Shown: piece by piece, positions 43,067-64,000 of the stretch
Position numbering within the stretch: the stretch's first letter is position 1
Layout of the letters: each line of letters opens with the position of its first letter
From: Streptomyces sannanensis
Lineage (GTDB): Bacteria > Actinomycetota > Actinomycetes > Streptomycetales > Streptomycetaceae
NCBI RefSeq assembly: GCF_039536205.1
Contig: NZ_BAAAYL010000001.1
Coordinates: 62,001 to 126,000, forward strand
DNA length: 64,000 nucleotides
Direction of reading: 5' to 3'
The notes under the pieces: model-generated
The model's input: only the letters and a program-made list of their open reading frames with translations
The model's database searches: none
Told to the model about the DNA's origin: nothing
Made by a program: the position numbers and the translations under genes

Positions 43067-43090
43067 TACTCCAGCTGTAGATGGTGATCT

Positions 43091-46112: not shown

Positions 46113-46550
46113 GTGAGCATCATCATCAAGTTCTTCATCGCCCCTGACGACACCTCAGCTGCGGGCATTGTTGATCGCGGGCCGGTCGGCGTCTTCGACT
46201 CGCTGGCCTGCGGCAACTTCGATGCTTCCGAGGCGGTGGTCGAGTGGGAGAGCCTGCTTACTGGGCAGAGCTTCGAGGCGCTCGTCGCGTCCGATGAGCC
46301 GCGCATGGTTGCTGACCCAGAGGATGGGGACGGCCCCCTGCTGTTTGTCGCCTCGGGTGCGCTTCAAGGAGCGCTGGCCGGCGCTTCGGCCTCTCGCCTT
46401 GCCGAGGTCGGCGAGCTGTGGATCCAGGAACGGGCCGCCGAGGGCGAGGCGTTCGACTTGGAGATGGTGCGGGAACTCCTGGGTGATCTGGCAGACCTGG
46501 CCCGTGCCGCCGAGGGGCGGGGTCACGGCCTGTACTGCTGGATGGCCTAG
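46113..46550 (+). CDS. IS passenger protein of unknown function, copy B
   Basis: Identical to the copy A passenger (145 residues, MSIIIKFFIAPDDTSAAGIV to GHGLYCWMA). It is placed 95 bases inside the left end of the element and 79 bases upstream of the transposase gene. No nuclease, methylase or DNA-binding motif is visible. The Asp/Glu-rich composition resembles an immunity or antirestriction-sized protein, but that is speculation. Confidence 0.7.
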   Translation: MSIIIKFFIAPDDTSAAGIVDRGPVGVFDSLACGNFDASEAVVEWESLLTGQSFEALVASDEPRMVADPEDGDGPLLFVASGALQGALAGASASRLAEVGELWIQERAAEGEAFDLEMVRELLGDLADLARAAEGRGHGLYCWMA

Positions 46551-46629
46551 CATCCCGGCCGCCGCGGTACGGTCCCGCGATCTGGACCGGGAGCGAGACG
46601 GTTGCGGCCACCGGTGATCATCGTGGTTT

Positions 46630-47946: not shown

Positions 47947-47973
47947 AGATCACCATCTACAGCTGGAGTACTA

Positions 47974-49071
47974 GGGCGCGTATCGAGTTGTGATCAATTT
48001 GCGGGATTCGCCCTCGCGGCGGGGCCTGATCCGGTAGATCGTCTTGCATGACGCGGGTGCAGTTGACGGACGAGGAGTGGGAGTTCATCGAGCCGTACCT
48101 GCCAATCGGCAGGTTTGGCCCGTACCCCGAACGGCTGCGACAGCAATTCGAAGGCGTGATCTGGCGGTTCAGGACGGGCGGGCAGTGGCGGGAGATGCCG
48201 AAGGAGTTCGGTGCCTGGCCGACCGTCCACAACCGCTTCCGGCAGTGGAGGGATGCCGGCGTCTTCGAAGCCCTGCTGGAGGGCCTGATCGCGGAAGCCG
48301 CGAAGCGGGGTGAGGTGGACTTGTCCCTGGTCAGCGTGGACTCCACCACAGCCCGGGCCCACCACGACGCTGCCGGTACCCATCTCGGCCAGGACGTCAT
48401 GACCGCTCTGGAGAAGGCCGCCGTCGACGAGGAGAAGGCCCGGCAAAAGGGGGCGGCCCGGAAGAACAAGACGGGCAGGACGCCGGAAACGACCCCGAGC
48501 GGGAAGAACGACGGCACATCCGGCGCCGGCGCAAACTCCGGCTGAAAGCCGCCCTGCTCGGACGTTCGAGGGGCGGGCTGACCAGCAAGGTTCATCTCGC
48601 CGCCGACCGGAAGTGCCGTCCTCTGGCGTTCGTCCTGACCGCGGGGCAGGCCGCGGACAGCCCGCAGTTCATCCCCGTGCTCAAGAAGGTGCGGGTCCGC
48701 CTGCCCGTCGGCCGCCCCCGCACCCGCCCCGACGCGGTTGCCGGCGACAAGGCCTACTCGTCCCACGGAAACCGTGCCTACCTGCGGAAACGCCGCATCA
48801 AGGCGGTCATCCCGGAGAAGAAGGACCAGGCCGCCAACCGGAAGAAGAAAGGCAGCAGGGGCGGTCGGCCCGTCAGCCACGACGCCGACCTCTACAAGGA
48901 GCGGAATGCCGTCGAGCGGCTGATCAACAAGCTGAAGGCATGGCGAGGCATCGCCACCCGCTTCGACAAGACCCCTGAGAGCTACCTCGCCGGCCTCCAC
49001 CTCCGCGCCTCGATGATCTGGATCAAGGACCTCACGCGGACCACCCCTTGATCACAACCGAATACGCGCCC
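47974..49071 (+). mobile_element. IS5-family-like element (about 1.1 kb)
   Basis: The terminal inverted repeats are GGGCGCGTATCGAGTTGTGA at the left and, read inward from the right, GGGCGCGTATTCGGTTGTGA, both followed by TCAA. The ends are framed by CTA (left) and TAG (right), so the element sits in a CTAG-like target. It lies directly against IS701-like copy B. It encodes one transposase in two overlapping frames. Confidence 0.88.
48048..49051 (+). CDS. IS5-family transposase in two frames (probable -1 frameshift)
   Basis: Frame 1 (48048-48545, 165 residues) begins MTRVQLTDEEWEFIEPYLPI and holds the first catalytic Asp in LVSVDSTTARAHHDAAGTHL. Frame 2 (ending 49051) carries SRGGLTSKVHLAADRKCRPL, the second Asp in VAGDKAYSSHGNRAYLR and the Glu in KERNAVERLINKLKAWRGIA. 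The frames overlap from about 48444 on. A CAAAAGGGGG run at the start of the overlap could allow -1 slippage. Together they make a full-length enzyme, so this is more likely programmed frameshifting than decay. Confidence 0.8.
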
Positions 49072-49075
49072 TAGC

Positions 49076-50145
49076 TGTTCTGTCTCGGGAGGTTGTGGAC
49101 AGTGACAGGGGTCACGGCTGACCAATCTTGAAATGGGTGAGGGCCTTCTGGCCTGGTGTGGATTGCGACATCTGCACCAGCAACAGAAAGGCCCTCGTGC
49201 CCCACCGTAATGCACCCCTGAGCGAAACCGGCCGCCTGCGCCTGGCCCGCTGCGTCGTCGACGAGGGCTGGACCCTGCGCCGGGCCGCCGAACGCTTCCA
49301 GGTCTCACCCACGACAGCCCAGCGGTGGGCCGGCCGCTACCTCGAGCTGGGCGAGGCAGGCATGACCGACCGGTCCTCACGCCCGCAGCGCAGCCCGCGC
49401 CGGACCCCGACCCGCACCGAGCGGCGCATCATCAAGGTCCGCGTCCTGCGCCGGTGGGGGCCGGCCCGCATCGCCTACCTTCTCGGGCTGAACCCCGCGA
49501 CCGTCCACCGGGTCCTGACCCGCTACGGCCTGGCCCGTCTGACCCACCTGGACCGTGCCACCGGCCGCGTCATACGCCGCTACGAACGTGAACGCCCCGG
49601 CGAACTGGTGCACGTGGACATCAAGAAGCTCGGCAACATCCCCGACGGCGGAGGCCACAAGACCCTCGGACGCCAGGCCGGCCGCAAGACCCGCTCCGGC
49701 GTCGGTTACAGCTACCTGCACAACGCCGTCGACGACCACTCCCGCCTCGCCTACAGCGAGATCCTCGGCGACGAGAAGAAGGAGACCGCCGTCGGATTCT
49801 GGCAGCGGGCCCACGCCTTCTTCGCCCAGGCCGGGATCACCGTCGAACGCGTCCTGACCGACAACGGCTCCTGCTATAAATCCCACCTGTGGCGCAACTG
49901 CCTCACAGAGCAAGGGATTTCACACAAGCGGACCCGCCCCTACCGGCCCCAGACCAACGGGAAAGTCGAGAGGTTCAACCGCACCCTCCTCGACGAATGG
50001 GCCTACGCACAGCCCTACCGGAGCGAGACCGAGCGACGCGAGGCATACCCCGCCTGGCTGCACACCTACAATCACCACCGCGGACACACCGCGCTCAAGG
50101 GCCAACCACCCGCCAGCCGCGTCCCTAACCTCACGGGTCAGTACA
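49076..50145 (+). mobile_element. IS481-family element
   Basis: The left end is TGTTCTGTCTCGGGAGGTTG and the right end, read inward, TGTACTGACCCGTGAGGTTA: imperfect inverted repeats starting TGT. It is bordered by a perfect 6-base duplication CCTAGC (49070-49075 and 50146-50151), which fits the NCTAGN target known for Bordetella IS481. The duplicated site includes the last two bases of the adjacent IS5-type element, so IS481 inserted after it. Confidence 0.88.
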
Positions 50146-50150
50146 CCTAG
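49197..50150 (+). CDS. IS481-family transposase
   Basis: A 317-residue transposase with an N-terminal helix-turn-helix (CVVDEGWTLRRAAERFQVSP, TTAQRWAGRYLE) and an rve integrase core. The first Asp is in ELVHVDIKKLGNIPDGGGHK, the second in ERVLTDNGSCYKSH, and the Glu in RPYRPQTNGKVERFNRTLLD. The GTG at 49197 follows GAAAGG; the frame is open upstream to 49128. The stop codon TAG (50148-50150) lies outside the element, in the duplicated target CCTAGC. Confidence 0.9.
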   Translation: MPHRNAPLSETGRLRLARCVVDEGWTLRRAAERFQVSPTTAQRWAGRYLELGEAGMTDRSSRPQRSPRRTPTRTERRIIKVRVLRRWGPARIAYLLGLNPATVHRVLTRYGLARLTHLDRATGRVIRRYERERPGELVHVDIKKLGNIPDGGGHKTLGRQAGRKTRSGVGYSYLHNAVDDHSRLAYSEILGDEKKETAVGFWQRAHAFFAQAGITVERVLTDNGSCYKSHLWRNCLTEQGISHKRTRPYRPQTNGKVERFNRTLLDEWAYAQPYRSETERREAYPAWLHTYNHHRGHTALKGQPPASRVPNLTGQYT

Positions 50151-50151
50151 C

Positions 50152-50273
50152 AGCGTCTCCATGTGCGCCTCGACGAGACCCTGCACATCTGCCTCGACCT
50201 CAGCAAGACGCGGCATGACCTCGCTCACGCCGCTTTGCGATGCGTCCGTCCGGAACAACTTCAAGCCGACCAC
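50152..50273 (-). pseudogene. N-terminal fragment of a DUF5655/NucS-like endonuclease-domain protein, cut by the IS stack
   Basis: From a GTG at 50273 the frame reads [20 protein letters not shown] and PRLAEVEADVQGLVEAHMET, then LLG, and is interrupted at the IS481 target. In the family I recall, LKLFR opens the protein, and '...LIE.NMETLLGVRFLASEYSTG' leads into a restriction-endonuclease-like core. That core is not found beyond the IS elements on the left, so it has been deleted. Confidence 0.5.
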
Positions 50274-50371
50274 CCCCGTTATCGCATAGGAGATGGACAA
50301 CGTCGGACGGGCGGAGAATTGTTTCCGCAACCAGCACGAGGCACGTGAAGAACGTGTGCCGGAGGCCCGAT

Positions 50372-50560
50372 CGACTGGTTCAGCGCTCCGAGGCTTACCT
50401 CCCGGACGTCCGCAACTTCGGTGCGAAGTCCATCGCCGAGGTCATGGAAAAGCTCCCCGGGATGGGCCTGGCCCTGAAGGACAGCCCGCCCGGATTCAAC
50501 CCGCCCGCCGCCGCCTTCGACGCGGACGCGGGCTTCGTGGAGACCGAGCAGTACCGCTGA
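50372..50560 (+). pseudogene. fragment of rpoA encoding the end of the RNA polymerase alpha C-terminal domain
   Basis: [40 protein letters not shown], then GFNPPAAAF and [13 protein letters not shown] before the stop. This is the last 62 or so residues of actinomycete RpoA, including the RNFGAKS helix of the alpha-CTD and the conserved FVETEQY tail. The N-terminal and most of the linker are absent. The normal rpoA locus (ribosomal operon) is not here, so this is an ectopic partial copy. Confidence 0.8.
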
Positions 50561-50639
50561 GCCGCGCCGGTCATAAGACAAAGCGTCCAGGGACAGGAGA
50601 ACCTCACCGCTGTTTCGACGCCCTCAGGGGACCTCGGGC

Positions 50640-50735
50640 GGGTCGCGCCAACGTACAGCCAGGTGGACAGCGCCGAGTGCCGCAGGTCGTACAGCCGTTT
50701 CGCCGGCAGGGAGCTGACGAGAAGGGGGCGTTGCC
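50640..50735 (-). pseudogene. tyrosine recombinase fragment (RHxxxS box)
   Basis: The minus frame reads LLVSSLPAKRLYDLRHSALS and TWLYVGAT, which is the R-x-Y-D-L-R-H-x-x-x-S-x-W-L segment of integrases. The following residues (RPRSPEGVETAVRFSC) no longer match. It is a second, separate integrase remnant, about 7.6 kb from the first one. Confidence 0.6.
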
Positions 50736-50756
50736 CGAGGCCGGCACCTCGTGCAT

Positions 50757-52202
50757 TCAGATATAGAACTTGAACTGAGGCAGTGGCTCCCGGTCTGCGG
50801 GGATCTCCCTCATGATCTCGCCGACCAGCCCGGAGAACTTGATCGTGATCGGCAGGAGTCCGCCCAATGCGGCCGAGTTCCAATTGAGCTTCGTGAGCGC
50901 GAGGACTTCCTTCAGCAGAGCATCTCGCGAAGAATCCTGTCCGACATGGTCTGCGACCTGGAGCGGCGCCGGAACGTGCATCCCGTGGAACTCGTTGAGC
51001 GCGGATATGTAGCCCGTCGTGTACAGGTAGTCCAAGTCACCGAAAGTGAAACGGGTTCCGCGCAGCGGCGGGTACTTCGATGTGGTGATGAGACGTACCC
51101 GGCTCTGCACCTCAAGCGCCATCAGGTCGTAGCGCCGCACACGGGACTCGATCGCCGCGCGGAAGCCGTCACGTTCGTCCGGCCAGTAGCGCGAGGTCTT
51201 GTGGACCACGATGCGAGCCGGGGTCTGCTTCATGGCTGCCTCGTACCGGTCGAGTACCAGGGCCATCAGCTGGTGCGCGCCGTCAGCCGTCAGGTGAGGC
51301 GAACGACTCCCGGTCTTGTTCGGATCCCACTCGAATTCGTGTCCCCGGAGAACCAGTCCTTCCCCTCGCTCGTCAAACACCTGCACGAGGCTGGTCTGCA
51401 TCGTCGCATCCGCGCTACCCAGTGGCCGATAGAAGCCGATGCCGACGTAGCAGGTCCCAGGCGTAAGGCCGTACGGACTCCACGGATAGCCTCCCGCCTT
51501 GCAGTACATCGCGGTGAAGAAGTTCCAGGCGATGCGGGAGGGCGGTGTCCTGTCGCGCCCGTCGAGCGCGGGCGCTCGGACGATCTGCGTTGGTATGCGG
51601 AACTTCATGGCGCTCGCCTTGAGAGCCCGGCGCAGGTCGCGATGGACCGCGCCGGTCTCTTTGCCGGTGTAGTCGGCCGTGCCGCAGCGCGTCACGATCT
51701 GGTCGGACAGCGCGATCACGACGTAGTCGGGGACGCTGTCACGCTCTGCCAACTGCCGGAACTTGGCCTCGAACAGGGTCAAGGCAGCGTGGAAGCGGTC
51801 CTTCTGCGACTTGATCTCCAGTACCTGCCGCAGTTCGGTCTGCCCCAGTTCTTCATTCCACGCGTCGTCGAACTCCAGCGACGAGAAGAACCCGCGGTCG
51901 GGCATCCACCCAGGGAACTCCGGGTTGTTCAGATCCCCGCGTACGCCCTCGGCGCGACTGCTCATCCAGGTACGGGCCGCCTCGACGAGCTCGGCGGTAC
52001 CGATCAGCCCCACGCGCAGCCGGGTGGGATGGCGGCCCGATGCCGTCCAGGAACGCGGCCCGTAGCGTGCGATGCCGGCCTTGGGGTCAATGTGCAGGCC
52101 GTCGTCGGCGAACTGCAGCAGCGGTTCGGGAAAGTAGGTGCTAGCGATGAGCGACGGGGAGCCGGCGGGCGAGATCCTCGGTGGAGCAGGGCGTGCCGTC
52201 AT
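50757..52202 (-). CDS. short prokaryotic Argonaute (MID-PIWI), predicted catalytically inactive
   Basis: A 481-residue protein with the layout of short pAgos: no N or PAZ domain, a MID domain (about 60-215, with DYVVIALSDQIVTRC and RRALKASAMKFRIPTQIVRA) and a PIWI domain (220-481). Hallmarks are CYVGIGFYRPL (251-261), IVVHKTSRYWPDE (331-343), ITTSKYPPLRGT, LYTTGYIS, LTKLNWNSAALGGLLPITIK and the closing REPLPQFKFYI. The strand that holds the first catalytic Asp in active Agos reads VGIGF, so slicing is unlikely. Its ATG overlaps the stop of the HNH-APAZ gene by four bases. By analogy with SPARTA/SPARSA/SPARDA it would load a guide and switch on the partner nuclease. Confidence 0.88.
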   Translation of the reverse strand: MTARPAPPRISPAGSPSLIASTYFPEPLLQFADDGLHIDPKAGIARYGPRSWTASGRHPTRLRVGLIGTAELVEAARTWMSSRAEGVRGDLNNPEFPGWMPDRGFFSSLEFDDAWNEELGQTELRQVLEIKSQKDRFHAALTLFEAKFRQLAERDSVPDYVVIALSDQIVTRCGTADYTGKETGAVHRDLRRALKASAMKFRIPTQIVRAPALDGRDRTPPSRIAWNFFTAMYCKAGGYPWSPYGLTPGTCYVGIGFYRPLGSADATMQTSLVQVFDERGEGLVLRGHEFEWDPNKTGSRSPHLTADGAHQLMALVLDRYEAAMKQTPARIVVHKTSRYWPDERDGFRAAIESRVRRYDLMALEVQSRVRLITTSKYPPLRGTRFTFGDLDYLYTTGYISALNEFHGMHVPAPLQVADHVGQDSSRDALLKEVLALTKLNWNSAALGGLLPITIKFSGLVGEIMREIPADREPLPQFKFYI

Positions 52203-53494
52203 CGCAGCGTTTCCTCCGCGTCGTCGTCTTCGTCGGCGGCATCATCGTCCTCGCTCAGACCCTCCGCCTCGGCCCAGGTGAAGAGGTCGTCCACGTAGTC
52301 GACATTCTTGAAGGGCATGTCGTGCTCGGGGGGAATGCCCGGCCAGCGCACCTGTCCGCTACTCAGCGATGTCGAGACGATCAAATTCTGCCTGTCCGTG
52401 CCGAAGGGGAAGAAAATCCGCGGAGTGCTCCTGCCGAGGAAGTCCCGCCAGAACTGCACTTCGCCCAGGAGGTCGTGGTTGAAGAGGCGGGACTTCTTCC
52501 GGGTCACCTGCCGCCCGATGTACTTGGCCTGTATGGACTCGAAGCCGTCGGAGGTGACACGCAACTCGGGTCTGACGCTCAGGCACCACTGGTTGTCACC
52601 GATGAGGAAGAAGCGCAGCGAAACAGCACGGTGAAGCCAATAGTTGCGAGCCTCCCCGGTCGCTCGCTTCTTGGGCTGCCATACGACGCTCCGGGTCGCC
52701 CTGCTGGCATTCAACGGCCGGTATGGCACGGAGCGTTCAACGCCAGCAGCCTCCGGTTCGAAGTAGTAGCGGTGGTGGTCGTGGTCGAGCCGCAGTCCGA
52801 GACGTCCGGTGAGTTTGTTCAGCGACCGGTTCAGCAGCGCGACGTACCACCCCAGCCTGTCGGGATCCGTCCACCACTCCTTGGTGGAGAAGCGCTCGGT
52901 CTCCGTGCACGCCACCACGTCGACGAACGGGTTGCTGGTGTCCCGCAAGTCCTGGAATGCCCACAACCGCCCCTCACGCAGGATGAACGGCGTCATCGTC
53001 CCAGCAGATGCCGCGGCTGGCCGGACCTCGTTCTCCCGGCCGACAGAGCAAGGAGCTCCGTAGATGTAGCGCGGCATCTGCGTAACCGGCAGCACGTTGC
53101 TGTACACGGTGTCGTTGACCATCGGGGGCAGCTCCGTCGGCACGTTGGAACGCCCGCCAAGCCTGCGCTCGATCCGCTGTTCGTGAGTCTCCTTCATGGC
53201 GTGCAGACGCTCCACCGTGTACTTCGCCAGCGCACCTTCGGAGTCGATCAGCTGGTGATGCTGATTGCACAGCAAGATCAGGTTCTCGTACCGATTGCGC
53301 TCCTCCGGCGTCAACGGTGAATCGCCCCGCGGACCGTTCGGGCTCTCCGCCACGATGTGGGCCATCTCGCCAAGCACCACAACGGGGTCTTCCGGCGTCC
53401 CCTGAGCCGTCAGCAGTAAGCCGCATCCGGGAAAGGCGCAGATATTGCCGGAACGCTGGGTCAACTTGCGTTGCTGCGCGACAGGTACGGCCAC
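52199..53494 (-). CDS. HNH nuclease fused to an APAZ-type domain, partner of the short Argonaute
   Basis: A 431-residue protein. The HNH module is at the N-terminus: paired Cys19/Cys24 (NICAFPGCGLLL), His46 in GEMAHIVAESPNGP, Asn71, Cys76 and His79/His80 in NLILLCNQHHQLID. Residues about 130-410 form the APAZ-like region (RLWAFQDLRDTSNPFVDVVA, WTDPDRLGWYVALLNRSLNK, LRFFLIGDNQWCLSVRPELR, LLGEVQFWRDFLG), followed by an acidic tail EDDDAADEDDDAEE. The GTG at 53494 has GGAGGAGG just upstream; the open frame to 53776 is not coding. APAZ domains occur only with short pAgos. This makes a two-gene short-Ago/HNH system, a type I recall being called SPARHA. Confidence 0.88.
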   Translation of the reverse strand: MAVPVAQQRKLTQRSGNICAFPGCGLLLTAQGTPEDPVVVLGEMAHIVAESPNGPRGDSPLTPEERNRYENLILLCNQHHQLIDSEGALAKYTVERLHAMKETHEQRIERRLGGRSNVPTELPPMVNDTVYSNVLPVTQMPRYIYGAPCSVGRENEVRPAAASAGTMTPFILREGRLWAFQDLRDTSNPFVDVVACTETERFSTKEWWTDPDRLGWYVALLNRSLNKLTGRLGLRLDHDHHRYYFEPEAAGVERSVPYRPLNASRATRSVVWQPKKRATGEARNYWLHRAVSLRFFLIGDNQWCLSVRPELRVTSDGFESIQAKYIGRQVTRKKSRLFNHDLLGEVQFWRDFLGRSTPRIFFPFGTDRQNLIVSTSLSSGQVRWPGIPPEHDMPFKNVDYVDDLFTWAEAEGLSEDDDAADEDDDAEETLR

Positions 53495-53690
53495 AACACC
53501 TCCTCCAGGTAACCCACATGCTACGGACGACCTCTGACAAAGGCCCTCCCTCGCACAGGAGTGCGAACCATCGGGGCTCCGCTGCGTCGCAGCACCCGCT
53601 GGTGGGTCGTCACCGCGTCGGCCCAGCCTCTGATCTGCTGACCACTGGTTGTGCTGTCTTCGCTCAGTTCCTCGACCTGCTCGGCGAAAG
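53495..53690 (-). promoter_or_regulatory. leader region of the HNH-APAZ/pAgo operon
   Basis: 196 bases between the helicase stop and the HNH-APAZ start hold no gene. Apart from the ribosome site (GGAGGAGG), no promoter boxes or terminator are clear. It is enough space for an independent promoter, which would separate the pAgo operon from the helicase-nuclease pair upstream. Confidence 0.4.
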
Positions 53691-56600
53691 CTACCGGGCG
53701 CGCCGGGTGGTGATGAGCTGACCGTTGTGGAGGCGGTGGTTGAGGTCGAGGCCGCTGTCGAGCATCGCGAGGACATCGAGGTGGCGGTCGGCGGGCACAG
53801 TCGCCACCCGGCGACGGTCGCGGCCGACGCGGATGGTCGGGTGGCGCTCGCTAGGCCGTGCGACGCTGACCGGGCCGTCGGGTGTCCCTGCTGCCAGCCG
53901 AGTTAGCGGGGTGGTGGCGGCGCGGTTGTCGAGGAGCTGGTTGATCGGGTCGGAGGGGGTTCGGACGTAGTCGAGGAGGTCCTGGACCTCGTAGTCGTTC
54001 GCCTCGTACTGCCGTGTCCAGCCGTCGATGTGGTGCTGGGCGGTCCACTGCCGCAGGCCGGCCGACCGGTGCCCCAGGCGGGCGGCATCGCGGCCGAGGA
54101 GGTGGGCGATGCGTCGGGAGGTGATGCCGGAGGTGAGCAGGGTCAGGGCCTGCTCGGTGTCGACGCCGTGGCGGATGTGCCAGGCGGTGTGCGTGTTGAG
54201 CCTGGGTGCGCCGGGAGAGAGCACGGGACTGGTGTTGACCAGGTTGATGAGGGCGCCGACGGTCCAGCTCAGGGCGTGCCCGAAGGCGGTGCTGATGTTG
54301 CGTACCGCCTGTTCGAGCGCCCACCCGGCAGCGACGCCGGGCTGCCAGGAACGGGCGAGGTCGGGGATCGTGGTGCCGGAGATCCACTCGCGGAGCGCGG
54401 GGGCGATCGGGACGTCCATCTGTGTGCCCCGTGTCTCCTTGTCCTTAAAGCTCCAGGTCTTGGTGACCTCCGGGACGTGGTCGAGTAGACGGTCGAAGAC
54501 CTGGTGCTCGGTGAGGAAGTCGAGGGTGCGTTGAAGCGACCATTCCTCCGGTTCGGCGAGCCGGTCGCCTCCGATGGCGTCGTCCACCGTGTGCCGGTCG
54601 AGCAGCACGGCCAACTGGTTCGCGAGCCAGTCGAGGTAGCGGGCCGACCCCAGGCTGGTGCCGGTGGCGGCCCACCGGCCAGCCTGGGCCGGGTCGGTGG
54701 TCTCGAACACGGTGGCAACCTTGTCCGCGAGGGTGAGCCACCGGCTGGTTTGCCGGCCGTTGCCTCTCTGGGACAGGGCGAACAGTGCGTCCAGGGCGTC
54801 GATGGGATTGCCCTGCGGCGTCGGCGAGGAAGCGTGGAGCTGCAGGACGAGCCAGACAAACGAGGCGAAGTCTGCGGCGATACCATCCGCCAGCGCGAAG
54901 ACTCCGTCAGCGTCCTGTCGCAGGGTGTCCTCGGCGTCAGCGAGTGCGGTCAGGGCCTCGTCGGTCAGCAGTGCGGAAACGACGCGCAACTGCTCCGGGT
55001 CGGGGTTGAGGGAGTCGAACTCGTCGGGGCGGGGCGGGTAGGGGCGGGTCAGGAAGATCCACCCCTCGCTCTCCCGACCAGCCCGCCCCGCGCGGCCGAT
55101 GGCGTTGAGGAGCTCGGCGGGGGACAGGGTGCGCTGGCCGTCGTAGGTGAGCGGGTCGCCGTCGACCTTGTGGTGGATAATGACCGTGCGCACGGGCAGG
55201 TTGACGCCGTCGGTGAGGGTGCTGGTGCTGGCGATCGCCAGGAGCTCGTTGCGACGCAGCGCGCCCTCGACGGCGTGCAGGACATCCTCGGGCAGGGCGC
55301 CGTGGTGGTAGGCGACGCCGTGCCGGGTGCAGCGCACTAGCGGGTGTTCCGTGCCGAGCGTGTCGGCGAGGTAGTCGGTCAGAGCCTCGGCTTCGGGCCG
55401 CTCGGGCAGGCACTCGGCGATGGCGAGTGCCGCGTCACGGGCTGCCCGCCGGGTGCCGACGACCATCAGCACGCTGCCGACCGCAGTGAGTTCCGCGGCG
55501 CCAGCGGCGAAGACCTGGTAGTCGGCGATCCCGCCTGGCAGACGGGTCCGCGCGTTCCACCGGCCTGCGGAGCCGGCGAAGCGCCGCGTGCCCACCTCTC
55601 CGGTAGTCAGTCGGGCGATGGCGGACGAGGCGGTCGGCCGGACATCGAGGAGGGTCTCGACGGGCACGGTGGCGAGCACCGGCGAGGCATGCTTTGCCGT
55701 CGGTCGCCGCTCCGTCAACTCGGCCTGCTCCGCCATGAGGTTCGGATACATGAGCCCGTGCATCCGGCGCGGGCCCCGCCAGGTGTCGGTGAAGTAGACC
55801 TCCCGTTCGGGGCGCTCCGGGTCGAGCCACGAGGCGATGTCGCCCTTATTGCCGACCGCCGCGGACAGCAGCACGAGTCGGATGTCCCTGCGAGCCTGCA
55901 GCAGCGTGAGCAGGCTCTCCAGCACGAAGCCGCGCCGCCCCTGGCCCAGGTGGTGGGCCTCGTCGACGACGACCAGCCCGACCTCCGCCAGTGCTTCGCC
56001 GGGGTGGTTGCGGATCATGTGCATGAGCCGCTCCGGGGTGACGATCTCCACGTCCCCGCCGTCCGGCTGGGCCGAGGAGGTCCAGGTGCCCAGCGGAAAA
56101 TCCGGTTGCTCTGCAGCCAGGCGCCGCCCGAGCACCCGCAGCCGGCCCCGCAGTGTCCCGCGCATCTCCCGCCCCAGGCTGCGCATCGGCGACACGTACA
56201 CCACGCGCCCGGGGCGCTGCGCCAGGTGCGAGCAGATCACCAGCTGCGCCATCAGCGTCTTGCCCGCGCTGGTCGGCACACTGATCAGGCTTCGAGACGT
56301 CGCCGGGTCGAGCGGATTGCCGCGCTTGAGCATCAGGAGCTGGCGCTGCGGCGGCCAGAGCGTCATCACTGGCGGCTCCGACAGTGCGAAGCTCCGCGAC
56401 ACTGCCCGGGGAGTGCCCGGGGGGAGCAGTTGGTACAGGCTGCTGGCCGCCATCTCCCCGCTCAGCTGGTACAGATGCGCGGCAACCCACCGCGCGAGCC
56501 GATCGCCCCGGCCGGCCGCCTGCGTCATCACGTCCCGCAGCAGCCGCTGCGCCGCCAACAGATCCCGTTCCTCGCCCACTGCCAGGAACTGGTACAGGTG

Positions 56601-57200
56601 GAAGACGGCCTCCACAACGGCCTCTGCGGGCCCGTACATGGTCCCCGCCAGGGACTCGCGGCGCATCATTGCCCTCACCCCACGCAGCTGCCGCCTCCAC
56701 GCACGCAGCGCCCGGCCCAGCTCCGGGCGGTCGAAGCCGAGAAAGATGACGCCGGCCTCTACCGACAGGGTGCCGATGTGCCCGCGCAGTTCACCGGTGA
56801 TGTCAACGAGAGCGTGGACCTGCCGGTAGACGGCGGTGGCGTTCGGGTCCTGCTCGCTGCGCCGGTATCCGGCTTGGGCGGCGAAGGCGATCTGGAGCCG
56901 CTCAGCCTCGGGTCTGCGTTCGTCGCCCAGGGCGAGGTCCATCAGGTGCGCGCTTGTGGCGAAGGCTCGCCGCACCTGCACCGCGTCGTAGCCAGGAGTC
57001 TCCGGGGCGAGCGCCGCGAGCCCGTGCAGGTACCACGCCGTGGCGAGGGTCTCGTCCTCGATCTCCCGCTCACCGCGGAAGGCCGCGACCTCTAGCTCGG
57101 TCATCGCCGCCAGCAGGTCCGGTGCGCTGGGCAGCACCCCGCCCGCCCGGTGCTCGCCGAGCGCGGACGCGAGTACCTCCAGGTCTAGAGTGCGCTCCAC
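53691..57200 (-). CDS. large Ski2-like SF2 helicase (HamB-like)
   Basis: An 1169-residue helicase. An N-terminal helical region of about 270 residues is followed by the motor: Walker A in ISVPTSAGKTLMAQLVICSH (308-316), TPERLM, the DEAH box VVVDEAHHLGQG (413-416), LLSAAVGN, VAYHHGALPEDV, STSTLTDGVNLPVRTVIIH, and motif VI LNAIGRAGRAGRESEG. The C-terminal third is helical and of unknown fold. The overall plan is that of Hachiman HamB. Its start overlaps the upstream nuclease gene by 16 bases, so the two act together. The assignment to Hachiman rests on architecture only. Confidence 0.75.
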   Translation of the reverse strand: MERTLDLEVLASALGEHRAGGVLPSAPDLLAAMTELEVAAFRGEREIEDETLATAWYLHGLAALAPETPGYDAVQVRRAFATSAHLMDLALGDERRPEAERLQIAFAAQAGYRRSEQDPNATAVYRQVHALVDITGELRGHIGTLSVEAGVIFLGFDRPELGRALRAWRRQLRGVRAMMRRESLAGTMYGPAEAVVEAVFHLYQFLAVGEERDLLAAQRLLRDVMTQAAGRGDRLARWVAAHLYQLSGEMAASSLYQLLPPGTPRAVSRSFALSEPPVMTLWPPQRQLLMLKRGNPLDPATSRSLISVPTSAGKTLMAQLVICSHLAQRPGRVVYVSPMRSLGREMRGTLRGRLRVLGRRLAAEQPDFPLGTWTSSAQPDGGDVEIVTPERLMHMIRNHPGEALAEVGLVVVDEAHHLGQGRRGFVLESLLTLLQARRDIRLVLLSAAVGNKGDIASWLDPERPEREVYFTDTWRGPRRMHGLMYPNLMAEQAELTERRPTAKHASPVLATVPVETLLDVRPTASSAIARLTTGEVGTRRFAGSAGRWNARTRLPGGIADYQVFAAGAAELTAVGSVLMVVGTRRAARDAALAIAECLPERPEAEALTDYLADTLGTEHPLVRCTRHGVAYHHGALPEDVLHAVEGALRRNELLAIASTSTLTDGVNLPVRTVIIHHKVDGDPLTYDGQRTLSPAELLNAIGRAGRAGRESEGWIFLTRPYPPRPDEFDSLNPDPEQLRVVSALLTDEALTALADAEDTLRQDADGVFALADGIAADFASFVWLVLQLHASSPTPQGNPIDALDALFALSQRGNGRQTSRWLTLADKVATVFETTDPAQAGRWAATGTSLGSARYLDWLANQLAVLLDRHTVDDAIGGDRLAEPEEWSLQRTLDFLTEHQVFDRLLDHVPEVTKTWSFKDKETRGTQMDVPIAPALREWISGTTIPDLARSWQPGVAAGWALEQAVRNISTAFGHALSWTVGALINLVNTSPVLSPGAPRLNTHTAWHIRHGVDTEQALTLLTSGITSRRIAHLLGRDAARLGHRSAGLRQWTAQHHIDGWTRQYEANDYEVQDLLDYVRTPSDPINQLLDNRAATTPLTRLAAGTPDGPVSVARPSERHPTIRVGRDRRRVATVPADRHLDVLAMLDSGLDLNHRLHNGQLITTRRAR

Positions 57201-58105
57201 ACGTACCTCCTCACGTCCTTCGCGAAGTCTTCAAGATCCTCGATCGCCACCACTACGCCCTGCAGCGCGCCCGGGTGGGTGTGGGTGGTGAAGTGCTGGT
57301 GCGAGCGCTCGAAGGCCGTGTCCGGGATGTATTCGGCGTCGAGAGCGATGCTGACCCCGCCGTTCCCCGACACCTTCGCGTCCACCCATTGCCGAGCTAT
57401 TGAGGCAACGAACTCCCGGGTGTCGGGGGCCAGCTCCCGGCCTCCCCACGAGATCTGACCCAGGTACCGCGCCCCCCAAGTGTTCAACTGCTGCCATGCC
57501 TTGCGGATCGTGTCGCTCGGCTTCGTCTTTTCCGCGGTGAATTTCTTCATCTCCCACAACCGGAAGACGAACCCCAGCTCGCTGCCGGGCACTCGGTGGA
57601 TCACCAGCCCGTCCGGCCCGCTGTCCGTCACCGTCGATGAGGGCGGGTCCAGGATCTCTACGCTGCGCCCCGGCTCGGGGGGAAGGTCGCGGGTGGAGAG
57701 ATACCAGAGCCACTCGCCTACGTAGCCAGTAATGCCGGTGGTGTCGTTGGCCTCGAATACCGGGCCGGCGTAGAGCAGGACGTGGGCGCGATCGGGGCCG
57801 GTCAGCGGGGTGCCGGCCAGGGCGCTGTCGCGCCAGAGCCGGTATGCGAGGTCGTCCAGGTCGGTACGGGCCCGCATGATCTCGTCGGCGATGATCCAGG
57901 CTGCCGCATCAAGGTCCTCGGGCTCCGGCCCGATGGTTACCACCAAGTCCCACGGGCACACCTGTCCGATGCCGCGGCTCTCCCGCTGAGTGAAGTCCAC
58001 AAGGCGGCCTCCGGCGGCCCGGGCGCGCTCCATGGCCTGCAGTGCGGGTATCGACACCCGTCCCCACCCCCGCTCCTGACTCGGTGCCGAGCCCCGCGGC
58101 AACAC
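57185..58105 (-). CDS. PD-(D/E)XK-type nuclease, HamA-like partner of the helicase
   Basis: A 306-residue protein. GITGYVGEWLWYLSTRD provides a Gly-rich Glu helix. The core is DGLVIHRVPGSELGFVFRLW followed by EMKKF: an acidic residue, strands and ExK, as in restriction-endonuclease-like and DUF1837/HamA nucleases. The rest is mixed alpha/beta with no other domain. It overlaps the helicase gene by 16 bases. The start is uncertain: the GTG at 58105 has AGGGTGA upstream, and a GTG at 58057 is possible. A nuclease held in check by the helicase, as in Hachiman, is the best model. Confidence 0.6.
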   Translation of the reverse strand: MLPRGSAPSQERGWGRVSIPALQAMERARAAGGRLVDFTQRESRGIGQVCPWDLVVTIGPEPEDLDAAAWIIADEIMRARTDLDDLAYRLWRDSALAGTPLTGPDRAHVLLYAGPVFEANDTTGITGYVGEWLWYLSTRDLPPEPGRSVEILDPPSSTVTDSGPDGLVIHRVPGSELGFVFRLWEMKKFTAEKTKPSDTIRKAWQQLNTWGARYLGQISWGGRELAPDTREFVASIARQWVDAKVSGNGGVSIALDAEYIPDTAFERSHQHFTTHTHPGALQGVVVAIEDLEDFAKDVRRYVWSAL

Positions 58106-58309
58106 GGATCACCCTACCCAGCAAAATCTGGTCTGTGAGGGCGGATACTGCGTGAGCGTGGCCGCGGGCCTGCTGCGGGCGCGGCCGTGCGAGTGCCGGA
58201 CTCGCGTGGCCGCGGCCCTGGGCGCGGCGGCCACCGGCCGTATGGCACAGCGACTGAACGGTCATGATCGGTGATGGCTACCCACCGTCACCACCGAATA
58301 CGGCCAGAC

Positions 58310-61300
58310 CTACATTTCGAACAGTTGCAGCTGCCCTTCAGTGTCGACGTCGAGTGCCTCCAACTCCAAGTTCGGCACAGGCTGTTCCACCGGCGATGCG
58401 TCCTGCGCGTCATCCAAATCGTCTGAAGCGTCGGATTGGACCGTGGCCCCTGCGTCTCCCGTTTCCGCCTCGTCGTCCTTCGGTGTCGGCAGTACGTACT
58501 CCTGTGCCAGGCCGGCCAGGTGAAGTGGCAGGGGCAGGGCAAGCGCCTGGTCGTAGTCCGAGGGCTGGCGCAGAATATGGGTGAGAAGCGCGAGGGACCT
58601 AGGGTCGTCGCCGTCGTCCCGATGGCAACCGACGACGGCGATCTCCAGCAGCCCCGGCATCCAGGCCGCCTGGCCGGTGTCGATGGTGGGTTCACCCTTG
58701 CGCTTGCCCTGAGCGATCGGCCGGGGCGAGAGCTTGTCGGCGGTCACCGCCGCGTGCTTGAACTGCACGGGCTTGGCCGTCGTACTGAAGAACACGCGGG
58801 CGTCTTCAGCGGCATCCTCTGGCACCCACAAGCCCTGCTGGATGCCGTTCGCCTTGCCCTCCGGGGCTCTCCCCCACCACTGCGGAGTTTCGTTCCGGGC
58901 GCCTGCGCGGACCCGGACCATCCGCAGGTCGGGGTCGAGGCGACGAGCGGGAGCGAGGCCGTCCTGCAGGCGATCCCGTTCGATCCGGCCGTCCTGGAGC
59001 CAGGTCCAGTGCGAGCGGGCGTTGTGGGCCTCGGCGAACAGGACGGTTGGTGCGGTGCGTAGGGAGGCACGCAGACCCTGAAGCCACTCGGCGGCCTCAC
59101 GGCGCTGCCGTTCACGTTCTTGGTAGCGTTTCGGGCGCTCGGTCCCACTTTCCGTCTGCACCTCCGAGGTGTCGGCCTCGTCGTCCTGTGAGCCGCGCTG
59201 GCTGGGCAGAACGGGCTTGACCTCAGCTTTTGTCGTCAGCCTCAGCAGGAGTTCGGGGTAGGGGACCCAGGCGCCTGCGCCGGAGCGCGCCTCGGGGTCC
59301 CAGCCTTCGACACGGGCCGCGTCGGTGCCGGCCGGATCGGGGGTGATCATGACGCCGACCGGGAGGTACGCGGCCCAGCGATTCCGGGTCGTACGGTTCT
59401 TACGGACCATCCACAGTGCGGCATGCCGCAGTCCGTCGGGCAGTCCGTCGTCCTCGGCGAGCCGGGGGAGGGTGCGCGCGCCGAGCTGCCGCAGGCCGTC
59501 GTTCCAGGCACTTAGCGTGCGGTGCCGCAGGCTGGACGCTGTTTCCGCGCCCTTGCCGTTCTCGCCGCCTGCTTCGGGCACCGTGGTGAACTGTGTGACG
59601 AAGCCTGCCTTGCCACAGCCGAGTCGCATGGCGAACTTCGGGTCGTGCAGTCTGCTTGGATATGACGCGGCGCGGCCGATCTCTACCAGGGCGAGGGCCG
59701 GCGCTTCGGTAGTGCGTTCCGCAGCCAGCCACTGTGCGGCGCTGTCGCGGCGGGCCACTGTCGCGGCGGTCACCTGGACGTCCTTGATATGGGTGCCGGT
59801 GGGCAGGTCGAGCGGGGCAAGGAGGCTGTCGGCAGTACGGTCACTGAGCGCGACGAGCGGGCGCATGCAGCGGACCCGCACGGTCAGCTCCGGAGCGGAC
59901 CACTCGTGCACGACCGGCGCGCCGGCCGTGGCGTCGTCGTACTGCTGTGCGGTGAAGGACCCGCCGTCGCCCTTAAGGCCCAGAAGCTCACCGAGGGAGG
60001 CCAAAGCGGCGTCGCGCAGCCGCGGCGACTGCCACAGCAGCCGTGCCTCAAGCACGGGAGCGCCGCCCTGGCGCGCTACGCCGTCGAGAGCGTCCAGCGC
60101 GTAGGCCGTCGCCAGCCGGCGCTGAGCGCACCGTTCCGCTTCGACCGTCTCCTTGTCGCCCTTGGGGATGTTCGCGGGCGTGCCTCGATCGATCAGCGCG
60201 AGGTCCGGGGCGCGGCGCAGTTCGGACGTGAGGGCGCCTTCCGCCCAGGCTGTGAGCTGTGAGAGCTGGTGTGCCATGAAGCCGGGGCCTACGTCGTGCC
60301 GCCCCATAGCGGTGCGGTACAGAATGCCGGCTCGGGCATCGTCGCGCAGCCAGGACGCGGGGTCGGTCAGGATCGCGTCGGCGTCCGGGAAGGGCTCGCC
60401 CAGGGGCAGTCCGGCGAGCATCGCTGCGGGGCCGCCCGCGCGCCACCGGTCGGCGAAGTCACCCTTCTCACCCATGTCCTTGTCCCAGTAGCGCTCCAGA
60501 GCGGCGACGGCGAACCGCTCGCTGCGGGGCGTGCCCGGCAGGAACGGCCTGCGCGGACGCAGCAGGACGGTGGTGCTCGCACCCCACGGGAGGCGCAACC
60601 GACCCGTCTTGGCGTTGGTACGAGTGGCCCAGCGGCGAACCGACCAGCGGAGGTTGAAGCGCGGCAGCGGGTCGAACGGCACGGTCTGGAGCGTGATCGA
60701 CAGCGTCACCGACCACCAGGAGTCCTGCTTCTCGTCCGGCCCGGGGAACCGGATCGGTTCGGAGACGAGTTGGGCACCCTGGTCACGTGGTCCACGTGGC
60801 ATGGCCCGGAAGATGAGCTGCCCACCGTCGTACGGGTACGGGCCTAGCGCGAGGATCCGCCGGGCCAGCCAGTCGGGGCTGAGGCTGTACTGGTGCGGTG
60901 ACGGACGTGCGGTGCCGCCATCGGTCGGGACGTCACGCGGCAGGAGTTCATGGTGGACGGTCTTCCAGCGCGGCGGATGGGCGGCCAGTTCTGCGATGGT
61001 CTCCTTCAGCAGGCCGCGGTACTCGGGCTCGGGCCGCAAGTCACGCAGCCAGTGCTTGAGCACGGTGTCCAGGACAGGGCCGGGGAGCGGGTCGGGGAGG
61101 TCGGCGGGCGCACATAGCCAGTGGGCTGGCGCGCCCGGGTCACGGTCGTAGAAGGGGCGTGGCAGCGCGAGGACGTCGGGCGCGAAAGCCTGCAGGACCT
61201 GTTCCAGGCGCCAGGTCGGTGCTGTCTTCCACGGCTCCTTGCCCGCTGCCACCCGGGGCGCGTTGCAGAGAGTCAGGACGGCGTCCCGCCACTGCTCGGG

Positions 61301-61393
61301 GAAGGGCAGGACGCGGTAGGGCACGGTGTGAGAGGCCAAGGCGTCGGCCGGGCGCCAGGCCGTGGTGCGGGCGGAGCGATAGACGGGTGGCAT
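58310..61393 (-). CDS. pPIWI-RE protein (DUF3962 N-terminus plus RNaseH/PIWI-like C-terminus)
   Basis: A 1027-residue protein. The first half matches the pPIWI-RE N-terminal module (YRVLPFPEQWRDAVLTLCNA; PLPRFNLRWSVRRWATRTNA; SERFAVAALERYWDK). The last third is the RNaseH-fold PIWI-like domain: TVLFAEAHNARSHWTWLQDG, RMVRVRAGARNETPQWWG, VFFSTTAKPVQFKHAAV, MPGLLEIAVVGCHRDD, LLTHILRQPSDYDQALALPL and PLHLAGLAQEYVLP. A disordered acidic tail ends in LQLFEM. GAGGAG precedes the ATG. pPIWI-RE proteins are known from comparative genomics as a PIWI family separate from Argonaute, encoded with a DinG-type helicase and a REase, and predicted to act in defence. The helicase gene lies 31 bases upstream. 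Confidence 0.88.
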   Translation of the reverse strand: MPPVYRSARTTAWRPADALASHTVPYRVLPFPEQWRDAVLTLCNAPRVAAGKEPWKTAPTWRLEQVLQAFAPDVLALPRPFYDRDPGAPAHWLCAPADLPDPLPGPVLDTVLKHWLRDLRPEPEYRGLLKETIAELAAHPPRWKTVHHELLPRDVPTDGGTARPSPHQYSLSPDWLARRILALGPYPYDGGQLIFRAMPRGPRDQGAQLVSEPIRFPGPDEKQDSWWSVTLSITLQTVPFDPLPRFNLRWSVRRWATRTNAKTGRLRLPWGASTTVLLRPRRPFLPGTPRSERFAVAALERYWDKDMGEKGDFADRWRAGGPAAMLAGLPLGEPFPDADAILTDPASWLRDDARAGILYRTAMGRHDVGPGFMAHQLSQLTAWAEGALTSELRRAPDLALIDRGTPANIPKGDKETVEAERCAQRRLATAYALDALDGVARQGGAPVLEARLLWQSPRLRDAALASLGELLGLKGDGGSFTAQQYDDATAGAPVVHEWSAPELTVRVRCMRPLVALSDRTADSLLAPLDLPTGTHIKDVQVTAATVARRDSAAQWLAAERTTEAPALALVEIGRAASYPSRLHDPKFAMRLGCGKAGFVTQFTTVPEAGGENGKGAETASSLRHRTLSAWNDGLRQLGARTLPRLAEDDGLPDGLRHAALWMVRKNRTTRNRWAAYLPVGVMITPDPAGTDAARVEGWDPEARSGAGAWVPYPELLLRLTTKAEVKPVLPSQRGSQDDEADTSEVQTESGTERPKRYQERERQRREAAEWLQGLRASLRTAPTVLFAEAHNARSHWTWLQDGRIERDRLQDGLAPARRLDPDLRMVRVRAGARNETPQWWGRAPEGKANGIQQGLWVPEDAAEDARVFFSTTAKPVQFKHAAVTADKLSPRPIAQGKRKGEPTIDTGQAAWMPGLLEIAVVGCHRDDGDDPRSLALLTHILRQPSDYDQALALPLPLHLAGLAQEYVLPTPKDDEAETGDAGATVQSDASDDLDDAQDASPVEQPVPNLELEALDVDTEGQLQLFEM

Positions 61394-61424
61394 GGGACGG
61401 CTCCTCGCGAGCAGAGTCGGGAAG

Positions 61425-64000
61425 TCAGCGATGGGTCATTGTGCGGAGGGCGTTGTAGAACGGCTGGTACAGGAGACGGACCAGAGAGCGAGCAGACGGG
61501 TCGGGGTGGGGCGGGGCGATGTCGGGCCCGTCCGTCAGGTAGGGGTCGAGGATGCCGGCGAGGGCGTGGAGCAGGCCGTCGGTGCCCGGCACATCAGTCC
61601 CGGAGGACGGTTGGCCAGTGCTGCCGGGTGCGAGCTGTCTCGCCAGGCGAGGCGAGAAGGCGGCATCGACGAACACCACCCGGGCCGGCACTCCGCCGCG
61701 CACCAGACGGCCGATGACCTGCCAGAGCGTGACGAGTTGGTCCCAGGCGAAGGCGCGCTTCTCCCAGGCGGGCAGTGAACTGTAGGCGTACCTGCGGTTG
61801 AGCAGCCGACGCCATTCGCGGCGGCCCTGTTGGCGCAGGACTCCGGCCGCTTCGTCCAGCGATCCCGCTTTCTCCATGAGTTCGGTGAGCGTGTGCGGGC
61901 CGTCGAGGGTGTCGCGGCGCGGCTGGTCGCGGAGCATGCCGCTCAGCCAATCGTTGACCGCGAAGACGGACAGGTCGAGGTCGTCGGGGCGGGGGTGAGG
62001 GCGGACCAGGAACAAAGCCGTGCCGAAGGCCGCTTTGCCCTCCTCGTTGAGGATGTTGTGGCCACGCTCGACGGCCAGCAGCGGAGCGACCAAGACTTCT
62101 GCGGTGTCATCGTCGGCGAAGCGGGCGACGTCGCCACGCCGTAGTGTCGCCGGAGTCTCGTCCTGCTGCCCCGGGGCGGTGCCGGCTGGTACGCCGCTGC
62201 CGCGGGCCTCGTCATCCGGGATCAGCGCGCTCACCTTGCCGCGCCAGGCGTCGAACCGGTGCAGTGCCTCGGCCACCGCAGCGGCTTCCCGGTAACTGCC
62301 CACAAGGATCAGCGCTCTCCGCCGCGTCGTCTCAGGGATACGGCTGATCTCCTGACCCAGCACCGAAGAGCCGCCCGGGCCCGGTTCGCCGAGCCGCCGG
62401 GCCATCGCGACCGCCTGGGCGAGCCGGTCGCGCGGCGGTGTGCCGGAGAGGCTCATCGGGCGCTCGTCCCGGTCGTAGAGGAAACGGGTGGCGAACGAGG
62501 TTCGGGCCACGGCAGCCAGGGACACGTCGGTGGGCTTGAGGACGAGGCTCACCGGGACGCGGACGTGGGCGCGGCTGGACTCGCCGGCCCAACTGGTACC
62601 GGACATCAACACGACGTGCGGGCCGCCACGACCAGTGGCCGGGTCGGCGCCGAGGCTGTTCAGGTTCAGCAGCAGCTCGCGCCCGACTCCGGCACACCGG
62701 AAGAAGCGCAGGGTGCCGCCCCGGCGGCCGGCGTCGTCGCGTTCCTCGCCGTCCGGGAGATACTGGTAGCCGAGGATGTTGCCCATGGGCGCCTCGGGCA
62801 CCAGCGGGGCGTAGTCCAGCGGGACGCGCCGGGCCAGCTCCCTGCCCTGGGAGTCCAGTCGCAGGGCGGCCTCCACGTGCGGCCATAGGAAGGTGAGTCG
62901 CTCCAGCCTGTGGTGGAGGGTGCTGAGCAGCAGGAGAAAGGAGAGCCGCAGGCATAGGACGTCCCACCAGTCCTTCGTCGGCTCGGGCGGGGGCGTGGTG
63001 AATGCAGGCTGTTCGGCCCGTACTTCCTCCGTCACCCGGTCGACGAGCTGACCGGCCAGCTCACGCACCCGATCCCTCGTGCGGCCCGCTGCCATGTGGT
63101 GCAGGAGGGCGTCGGCCGTGTCGGTGAGGACGCCGGTGAGCGGGTCGAGGGCGTCGCCTTCTCCGAACGGATCGTCGCGGAAGGCATCCCAGGCAGCCTC
63201 GAGCAAGCGGCGGGCCGGGGAGAGCGCGAGGTGCGGGGAGGGGCCCGGCTCGTCCGCCACGTCGTCATAGCCCTCGTAGAGTTCAGCGCTGTCCTCACCC
63301 ATGTCGGCCGCCGCGGACGCCTCCCGTTCGACCTGGTACTGCTCGCCTTCGCGGTGGCGCCGGGTCACATCGCGGAACAGATCGTCGAGCAGGCTCTGTT
63401 GGAGGGTCCACGGGCTGAAGTAGGCGGGATCAGCCCACTCCCGGAGGTACTCGTCCTTGATCAGCAGAGCGCAGAGCGGATCGACGGCAAGGGTGACGGT
63501 TCCCAGTGCCCGGTTCCACTGGGCGACCTGGCCGTCGGTCAGCGGCAGGCGGGCGCGCCTGCTCAGCTCCTCGATCTTGTAACGATTCAGCTGGTCGAGC
63601 CAGGAGTCGGTGTCGGGGCGAACCAGCGTGCCGGAGGGGGTGAAGAGGCGGTCCAGTGCCATCTGGACGCTGTCTGCCTCGTCCACGAAAATCAGGTCGC
63701 TGCGCAGACAGGCCAGTTCCAGCTGGCGCAGCCGCTCGTCGTTGAGTTGCGCGGGCACCTGGCTCTGTACCAGGCTGGCCGGGTTGGCCACCCAGATCAG
63801 AGCGTCGACCTGCGCGCGGGCAGCCGCGTGGCGCGGGCATTCGGCCCACAGAGGGCAACCGTGCGGGCGACCGGGCAGGCGGTCAGGGGCGTGGGCCTGG
63901 CGGGGTGCGGTGTTCCTCCGGTCGGGAGTCCACTGCTCCAGGACGACTGATTCCGGTTCCGCTGGGCCGCGCTGTGGCTCGGGATGCAGCCGGGTGCATG
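61425..64000 (-). CDS. DinG/XPD-like helicase of the pPIWI-RE system, 5' end outside window
   Basis: The frame is open to the right edge, giving about 858 residues. Cys residues at CTRLHPE and in HGCPLWAECPRHAAAR look like the Fe-S cluster ligands of XPD/DinG helicases. Motif II is DLIFVDEADSVQMALD. VVLMSGTSW is motif III-like, and the last motif is TLWQVIGRLVRGGVPARVVF (motif VI, QxxGRxxR). Walker A lies beyond the window. Long insertions with acidic stretches separate the motifs, as in the helicases that accompany pPIWI-RE proteins. An in-frame GTG at 63791 is internal to the similarity, so it is not the start. Confidence 0.85.
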   Translation of the reverse strand, partial: CTRLHPEPQRGPAEPESVVLEQWTPDRRNTAPRQAHAPDRLPGRPHGCPLWAECPRHAAARAQVDALIWVANPASLVQSQVPAQLNDERLRQLELACLRSDLIFVDEADSVQMALDRLFTPSGTLVRPDTDSWLDQLNRYKIEELSRRARLPLTDGQVAQWNRALGTVTLAVDPLCALLIKDEYLREWADPAYFSPWTLQQSLLDDLFRDVTRRHREGEQYQVEREASAAADMGEDSAELYEGYDDVADEPGPSPHLALSPARRLLEAAWDAFRDDPFGEGDALDPLTGVLTDTADALLHHMAAGRTRDRVRELAGQLVDRVTEEVRAEQPAFTTPPPEPTKDWWDVLCLRLSFLLLLSTLHHRLERLTFLWPHVEAALRLDSQGRELARRVPLDYAPLVPEAPMGNILGYQYLPDGEERDDAGRRGGTLRFFRCAGVGRELLLNLNSLGADPATGRGGPHVVLMSGTSWAGESSRAHVRVPVSLVLKPTDVSLAAVARTSFATRFLYDRDERPMSLSGTPPRDRLAQAVAMARRLGEPGPGGSSVLGQEISRIPETTRRRALILVGSYREAAAVAEALHRFDAWRGKVSALIPDDEARGSGVPAGTAPGQQDETPATLRRGDVARFADDDTAEVLVAPLLAVERGHNILNEEGKAAFGTALFLVRPHPRPDDLDLSVFAVNDWLSGMLRDQPRRDTLDGPHTLTELMEKAGSLDEAAGVLRQQGRREWRRLLNRRYAYSSLPAWEKRAFAWDQLVTLWQVIGRLVRGGVPARVVFVDAAFSPRLARQLAPGSTGQPSSGTDVPGTDGLLHALAGILDPYLTDGPDIAPPHPDPSARSLVRLLYQPFYNALRTMTHR

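Follow-up and report, generated by a model that had tools for sequence, protein, structure and literature searches.

A window of 64,000 bp from the genome of Streptomyces sannanensis (bases 62001-126000 of a 7,409,353-bp contig) was analysed, in which two gene modules encoding PIWI proteins lie near each other on the minus strand. The region is very probably a defence island of independently moving, abutting cassettes, namely a short Argonaute with an HNH-APAZ partner, a Hachiman-like HamA-HamB pair (HamAB) and a six-gene pPIWI-RE unit. The cassettes share strand and place, with no sign of common guides or a common pathway. A preliminary description had placed two separate PIWI families with different partners in one island, with a helicase-nuclease pair between them, and attributed their clustering either to a simple island effect or to shared guides, substrates or timing. 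Domain and structure matches confirmed the two families and their partners, the intervening pair proved to be Hachiman-like HamB-HamA, and the data favour the island effect; for shared guides, substrates or timing no support was found, either in the neighbourhood surveys or in close relatives, where each PIWI cassette occurs without the other. The order on the minus strand, 5′ to 3′, is TmtA with a transposase frame, helix-turn-helix (HTH) N6-methyltransferase, PprPDDEXK, PprRE, PprDinG, pPIWI-RE, HamA-like, HamB-like, HNH-APAZ and short Argonaute, and a Ser/Thr kinase gene, encoded on the plus strand, sits between the methyltransferase and PprPDDEXK. The features are as follows, L004 being the stretch past the window edge (L004 position + 60000 = window position).

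50757..52202, minus strand: short prokaryotic Argonaute (MID-PIWI, 481 residues); PADLOC pAgo_I E 4e-147, PDB 9om4_B E 4e-148, by sequence alignment
52199..53500 (likely start), minus strand: HNH-APAZ partner; HNH_2 and Aga/APAZ profiles, PDB 9om4_A E 1e-114
53597..53689, strand not applicable: seam between the Argonaute cassette and the HamAB and pPIWI-RE cassettes; blastn
53691..57200, minus strand: HamB-type helicase of the Hachiman-like pair; PADLOC PDC-M23B 199 bits, HamB1 188 bits, PDB 8vx9_B HamB 97 bits
57185..58105, minus strand: HamA-type PD-(D/E)XK nuclease; invariant G163, D165, G166, E185, K187
58310..61393, minus strand: pPIWI-RE protein (X, MID and RNaseH domains; 1027 residues); Pfam PF13111, PF18157, PF13032, predicted Argonaute fold
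61425..64000, minus strand: PprDinG helicase, truncated at the window edge (L004:1425-5156 in full); PADLOC and Pfam
L004:5116-6558, minus strand: PprRE, past the window edge; PADLOC and Pfam
L004:6371-8092, minus strand: PprPDDEXK, past the window edge; PADLOC and Pfam
L004:7998-9728, plus strand: Ser/Thr kinase, past the window edge; PADLOC and Pfam
L004:9776-11839, minus strand: HTH-N6-methyltransferase, past the window edge; PADLOC and Pfam
L004:12532-19810, minus strand: TmtA (PADLOC name) with fused transposase frame; PADLOC and Pfam

The cassettes were read as separate because their adjacency did not recur in surveys, each PIWI cassette is found without the other in relatives, and a seam divides them. 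Genomes G040 and G257 carry HamAB and pPIWI-RE without Argonaute, the pPIWI-RE proteins being 95 and 97% identical, while the Argonaute cassette was found without this pPIWI-RE unit, in the stretch fetched, in G275, G226 and G075 (96, 95 and 90% Argonaute identity). By blastn, DNA similarity to the latter three genomes spans at most 50616-53596 and ends at 53553-53596, on the HNH side; similarity to G040, G257 and G058 begins at 53690, the end of HamB. The two breaks lie no more than about 140 bp apart. From HamB through the pPIWI-RE genes the DNA is 93-95% identical, in one block in G040 and in two blocks in G257.

For the pPIWI-RE survey, 78 neighbourhoods were taken together with that of the window (hereafter OWN, its genome being G000), making 79 of 118 matches listed (hand count); the remaining 39 were the second G000 copy, partial or weak matches, and some full ones. 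Each neighbourhood was about 20 kb and extended from the pPIWI-RE RNaseH domain by about 13 kb upstream and by 5.6 kb downstream. The Argonaute survey comprised 81 loci drawn from a wide range of phyla, 80 of them being the best of 117 confirmed genome loci and the last a contig from a virus; each was covered with up to 10 kb on either side, or less where a contig ended, some loci being only 4-7 kb. Argonaute or HNH-APAZ was found in 0/78 of the other pPIWI-RE neighbourhoods; the HNH-APAZ profile hit only OWN among the 79, and the OWN stretch ends before its Argonaute gene. Conversely, none of the 81 other short-Argonaute loci contained pPIWI-RE, DinG or PprRE within the DNA covered. Whole-genome search of 50 of these 81 records revealed pPIWI-RE in five, one of them G275. 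Of 327 genomes drawn from the family, 94 had pPIWI-RE (PF13032) and 10 had a relative of this Argonaute, namely G000, three at 91-96% identity and six at 35-39%. Four genomes had both PIWI families, with no association (Fisher p 0.48): the two lie close together in G000 and G226, and on different contigs in G275 and G086.

It is highly improbable that the two PIWI systems cooperate, one sensing and the other killing, perhaps with shared guides. Such cooperation would agree with their common strand, with the distance of only about 5 kb between the pPIWI-RE and HNH-APAZ genes (a gap filled by HamAB), with the presence of both systems twice in the genome, and with a second genome, G226, in which the PIWI matches are 23.5 kb apart. 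However, the adjacency did not recur in the surveys, each PIWI cassette occurs without the other in near relatives, no genome-wide association was seen, and the pPIWI-RE of G226 is of a different clade and layout. The shared-guide or two-step model was not favoured because of this lack of recurrence. A survey finding the pairing to be unique to this strain had been named beforehand as speaking against a link between the two, and the result came close to this, G226 being the one other case. Several points nevertheless weigh against wholly separate cassettes. The G226 pair lies outside both survey windows, and looser PIWI links were missed because these windows are limited; the pPIWI-RE profiles were built on a single family, so that remote pPIWI-RE proteins beside Argonautes in other phyla could have escaped them; and in G075 a HamAB pair also adjoins the Argonaute cassette. 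Moreover, two close cases among 10 Argonaute genomes would be rare under uniform placement (a hand estimate of the order of 1e-4), so that the clustering exceeds uniform chance; this excess can be explained by a non-uniform distribution of defence islands, the estimate being uncalibrated against other defence pairs.

In OWN, G040 and G257, HamAB lies directly after pPIWI-RE, and, given the high DNA identity across that segment, it might have been taken on as an additional effector and work as a component of this pPIWI-RE lineage. We consider this unlikely, since all three genomes fall in one tight clade, the nearest tree neighbour of that clade (G082) has no HamAB in the fetched stretch, and the pair stands without pPIWI-RE or Argonaute nearby in 8/8 other Argonaute-free contexts fetched. 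HamA homologues were found in 16/327 genomes, in three of them beside pPIWI-RE. As in Hachiman, a HamA PD-(D/E)XK nuclease adjoins a HamB helicase. In the PDB comparison, the HamB match to 8vx9_B scored slightly under Hel308-type helicases at 104 bits. The HamA-like protein gave no PADLOC, Pfam or NCBIfam match at the limits used, and Foldseek alone gave no HamA match at E 0.001 or better; VIA-align on the same Foldseek candidates matched HamA. The pair was filed as Hachiman-like only, because no curated HamA profile matched. In G257 the HamB gene is interrupted by about 1.4 kb (L049:15516-16955).

Both proteins of the Argonaute cassette match the chains of the solved complex PDB 9om4 over nearly their whole length. 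The Argonaute gene directly follows the HNH-APAZ gene and overlaps it (52199 versus 52202), and the two form one operon of a MID-PIWI protein lacking N and PAZ domains and a separate HNH-APAZ partner, the arrangement of a short Argonaute system; the class is called SPARHA. The HNH-APAZ open frame extends to 53776, but its start is likely near 53500, since homology begins near residue 97. The short Argonaute is apparently catalytically dead, as the motif CYVGIGFY, which we take to be the site of the first catalytic Asp, has Gly instead. A plasmid search for this Argonaute returned 99 records, all below 60% identity, and viral contigs contained one relative (51% identity, L130). An IS481-type transposase is located at 49128-50150, just downstream of the short Argonaute gene.

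The 1027-residue protein contains all three pPIWI_RE domains (X, MID and RNaseH) by Pfam, and its predicted structure has an Argonaute/PIWI fold, as the preliminary description had anticipated for it and for the 481-residue Argonaute; profile comparison of the two PIWI families found no relation between them. The restriction endonuclease (REase), DinG and pPIWI-RE genes follow one another in that order and closely spaced, and PprRE and DinG profiles hit in 79/79 neighbourhoods. In the window's protein the first RNaseH strand showed no Asp, judged without superposition; according to Burroughs 2013 (PMC3702460), RNase H catalytic residues are retained only in a subset of pPIWI-RE proteins. Plasmid records matching pPIWI-RE numbered seven, all below 60% identity. 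The S. sannanensis genome encodes one more pPIWI-RE, a divergent one accompanied by REase and DinG, on a contig of 179,521 bp (L127, G000:C3:102291-103166), placed in the tree outside the PDDEXK/kinase group, and two partial pPIWI-RE matches lie about 13 kb apart in G009:C1:7024565-7038707.

The pPIWI-RE gene seems, from its conserved surroundings, to belong to a larger six-gene unit including the Ser/Thr kinase. Using profiles iterated from the window's own proteins, PprPDDEXK was found in 51 of the 79 neighbourhoods, the kinase in 43 and the methyltransferase in 32. The kinase was present in 43/51 PDDEXK-bearing versus 0/28 other neighbourhoods (p 1.6e-14), and the methyltransferase in 28/51 (in L066 not adjacent) versus 4/28 (p 6e-4); seven PDDEXK-bearing rows had neither and one had the methyltransferase alone. 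In 43/43 cases the kinase was on the opposite strand to PprPDDEXK, with open frames abutting or overlapping in 38 and the methyltransferase between them in five. The kinase Lys, the catalytic-loop Asp (within HRD, which in some reads HCD) and the Asp of DxG were kept in 43/43, with flanking residues atypical in several. The tree (a quick method, midpoint-rooted for drawing, with several long branches flagged by the tool) placed 50/51 PDDEXK-bearing rows, all except L108, in one group, whose support is moderate because the SH-like approximate likelihood ratio (SH-aLRT) value is 89. Correlation with pPIWI-RE divergence (Mantel r) was 0.92 for the kinase (43 rows) and 0.96 for the methyltransferase (27 rows, L066 dropped), compared with 0.96 for DinG, 0.92 for PprPDDEXK and 0.87 for PprRE (50 rows each), and 0/999 permutations were as high for each gene; L108 was left out throughout, and as rows are permuted, shared ancestry stays in the r values. 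The co-inheritance of the kinase, like the gene identities, the HamA and pPIWI-RE folds and the seams, was shown by the analysis itself.

Kinases are numerous in this bacterial group, and the methyltransferase family is common, with a match at E 1e-50 or better in 237/327 genomes; among the matches listed, many at 39-47% identity lie, by eye, away from pPIWI-RE, and the family also appears in four of the 28 neighbourhoods without PprPDDEXK. The kinase and methyltransferase might therefore be unrelated neighbours typical of actinobacterial genomes. The restriction of the kinase to PDDEXK-bearing neighbourhoods, its constant orientation and position, and Mantel values alongside that of DinG make this quite improbable, and the kinase also lies beside PprPDDEXK in other families. 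In a survey of the class, 17/394 genomes matched, nine of them outside the family, and the neighbourhoods of eight of these nine were fetched; in two, from two other families, the kinase adjoins PprPDDEXK (L212 and L213, the latter also carrying the methyltransferase). As for the other six, L214, L216 and L217 have core genes only (L217 with a downstream kinase match), L219 has REase and DinG, L218 has pPIWI-RE alone, and L215 is a 5.7-kb fragment.

In one subclade the methyltransferase is replaced in 15/15 members by a large gene, related among them and convergent with the kinase; L063 and L095 gave weak hits to it as well. A single example was scanned; it had NB-ARC and TPR over the cut-off and BTAD just under it, and is an AfsR-like STAND protein. 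In 15 of the 28 methyltransferases, read with simple patterns, motif IV was NPP with F, S or A as the next residue; two had TPP and four YPP, and in seven it was not found; the YPP rows are the window's lineage (OWN, L059, L060 and L062), the window reading SYPPS. With such a motif IV, presumably dead, the window's methyltransferase would be inactive, and in its lineage the protein may sense DNA instead of methylating it, because the motif is SYPPS against NPPF, NPPS or NPPA in 15/28. The kinase matched PD-T4-6 (189 bits) and then mad6 (181 bits, kinase domain), and the methyltransferase matched mad2 weakly, these being the only mad models with a match at the pPIWI-RE unit. No description of a kinase-linked pPIWI-RE unit was found in the searched literature, nor was the term pPIWI-RE found there beyond the 2013 prediction (PMC3702460), which is weak evidence, as preprints and most subscription journals were outside its scope. 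Among the papers listed there, none dealt with bacterial MADS.

Taken together, the chances seem evenly balanced that a large actinobacterial pPIWI-RE clade is run by phosphorylation, with the divergent Ser/Thr kinase as a working part, paired with an interchangeable N6-methyltransferase-like or AfsR-like NB-ARC/TPR STAND regulator; the unit at the window edge is probably governed by its kinase. Every activity and the order of events in the following are inferred by analogy. The pPIWI-RE protein would sense RNA-DNA hybrids or guided targets and recruit DinG and the two nucleases, as in the Burroughs 2013 model. The kinase with its methyltransferase-like or STAND partner would control when the unit fires, holding the two nucleases and the PIWI protein off, or switching them on, once the partner senses invading DNA. 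Independently, the apparently dead short Argonaute would detect invader DNA via a small guide and then activate the HNH nuclease, leading to indiscriminate DNA degradation so that the infected cell is killed or stalled; guide-dependent activation of DNA degradation is reported for a DUF4365 relative (PMC10810196). By analogy with the solved Hachiman, the HamB helicase would sense abnormal or damaged DNA and release HamA to cut; Hachiman is listed as degrading host and phage genome in a review table (PMC12948488).

Both PIWI genes are duplicated with 100% protein identity, mirrored near the other contig end. Base-by-base comparison of the arms covered the outer 20 kb, where the two contig ends are identical, and bases 110001-179352, which agree with the mirrored arm save for one single-base length difference. 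This arrangement fits a terminal inverted repeat of a linear chromosome. The single-base difference splits the HamA reading frame (window 57185-58105) in the right-arm copy, which may be real or an assembly error.

Beyond the pPIWI-RE unit, the frame of the TmtA homologue runs into a DDE_Tnp_1_4 transposase, and the C-terminal portion of TmtA is encoded in a frame of its own; further TmtA matches were found close to pPIWI-RE in L090, L094 and L117. A 465-residue minus-strand frame (L004:8382-9779), first scanned as a gene, was rejected because it is antisense to the kinase. Elsewhere in the window, at 43057-47980, two arms of 1966 bp complement each other completely across a gap of 992 bp, and each of them spans a DDE_5 transposase-type frame (frame 46630-47946 scanned). 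In 44000-64000 no Rfam family matched at its gathering score.

The neighbouring PIWI modules are best regarded as a case of defence-island stacking, whose main use is as a clear example in which the seam has been mapped. More important than the pairing is the extended pPIWI-RE unit, which is worth following. If the kinase and its STAND or methyltransferase partner belong to it, signalling acts upstream of an Argonaute-fold defence, and the question raised in PMC3702460, how the host is spared by the restriction enzyme, becomes newly testable.

Compared with known systems, the short Argonaute/HNH-APAZ cassette is another member of the one represented by PDB 9om4, alike in both chains and gene order with no notable difference. 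The HamA-like protein is a diverged version of that of Hachiman, outside the curated families. MADS is a defence system containing a kinase and a methyltransferase, and the unit described here resembles it in the mad6-like kinase and, weakly, the mad2-like methyltransferase; in contrast, the core here consists of pPIWI-RE, DinG, REase and PDDEXK, matching only Ppr/pPIWI families. PprPDDEXK is already listed in PADLOC. In Burroughs 2013 (PMC3702460), the system is a three-gene core with strictly conserved REase-DinG-pPIWI-RE order, standalone pPIWI-RE genes also exist, and no methylase gene accompanies the REase in the triads. The unit in S. sannanensis has the same gene order and the diagnostic Pfam domains, but differs from that three-gene core by the addition of PprPDDEXK, a divergent kinase, and a methyltransferase or AfsR-like gene.

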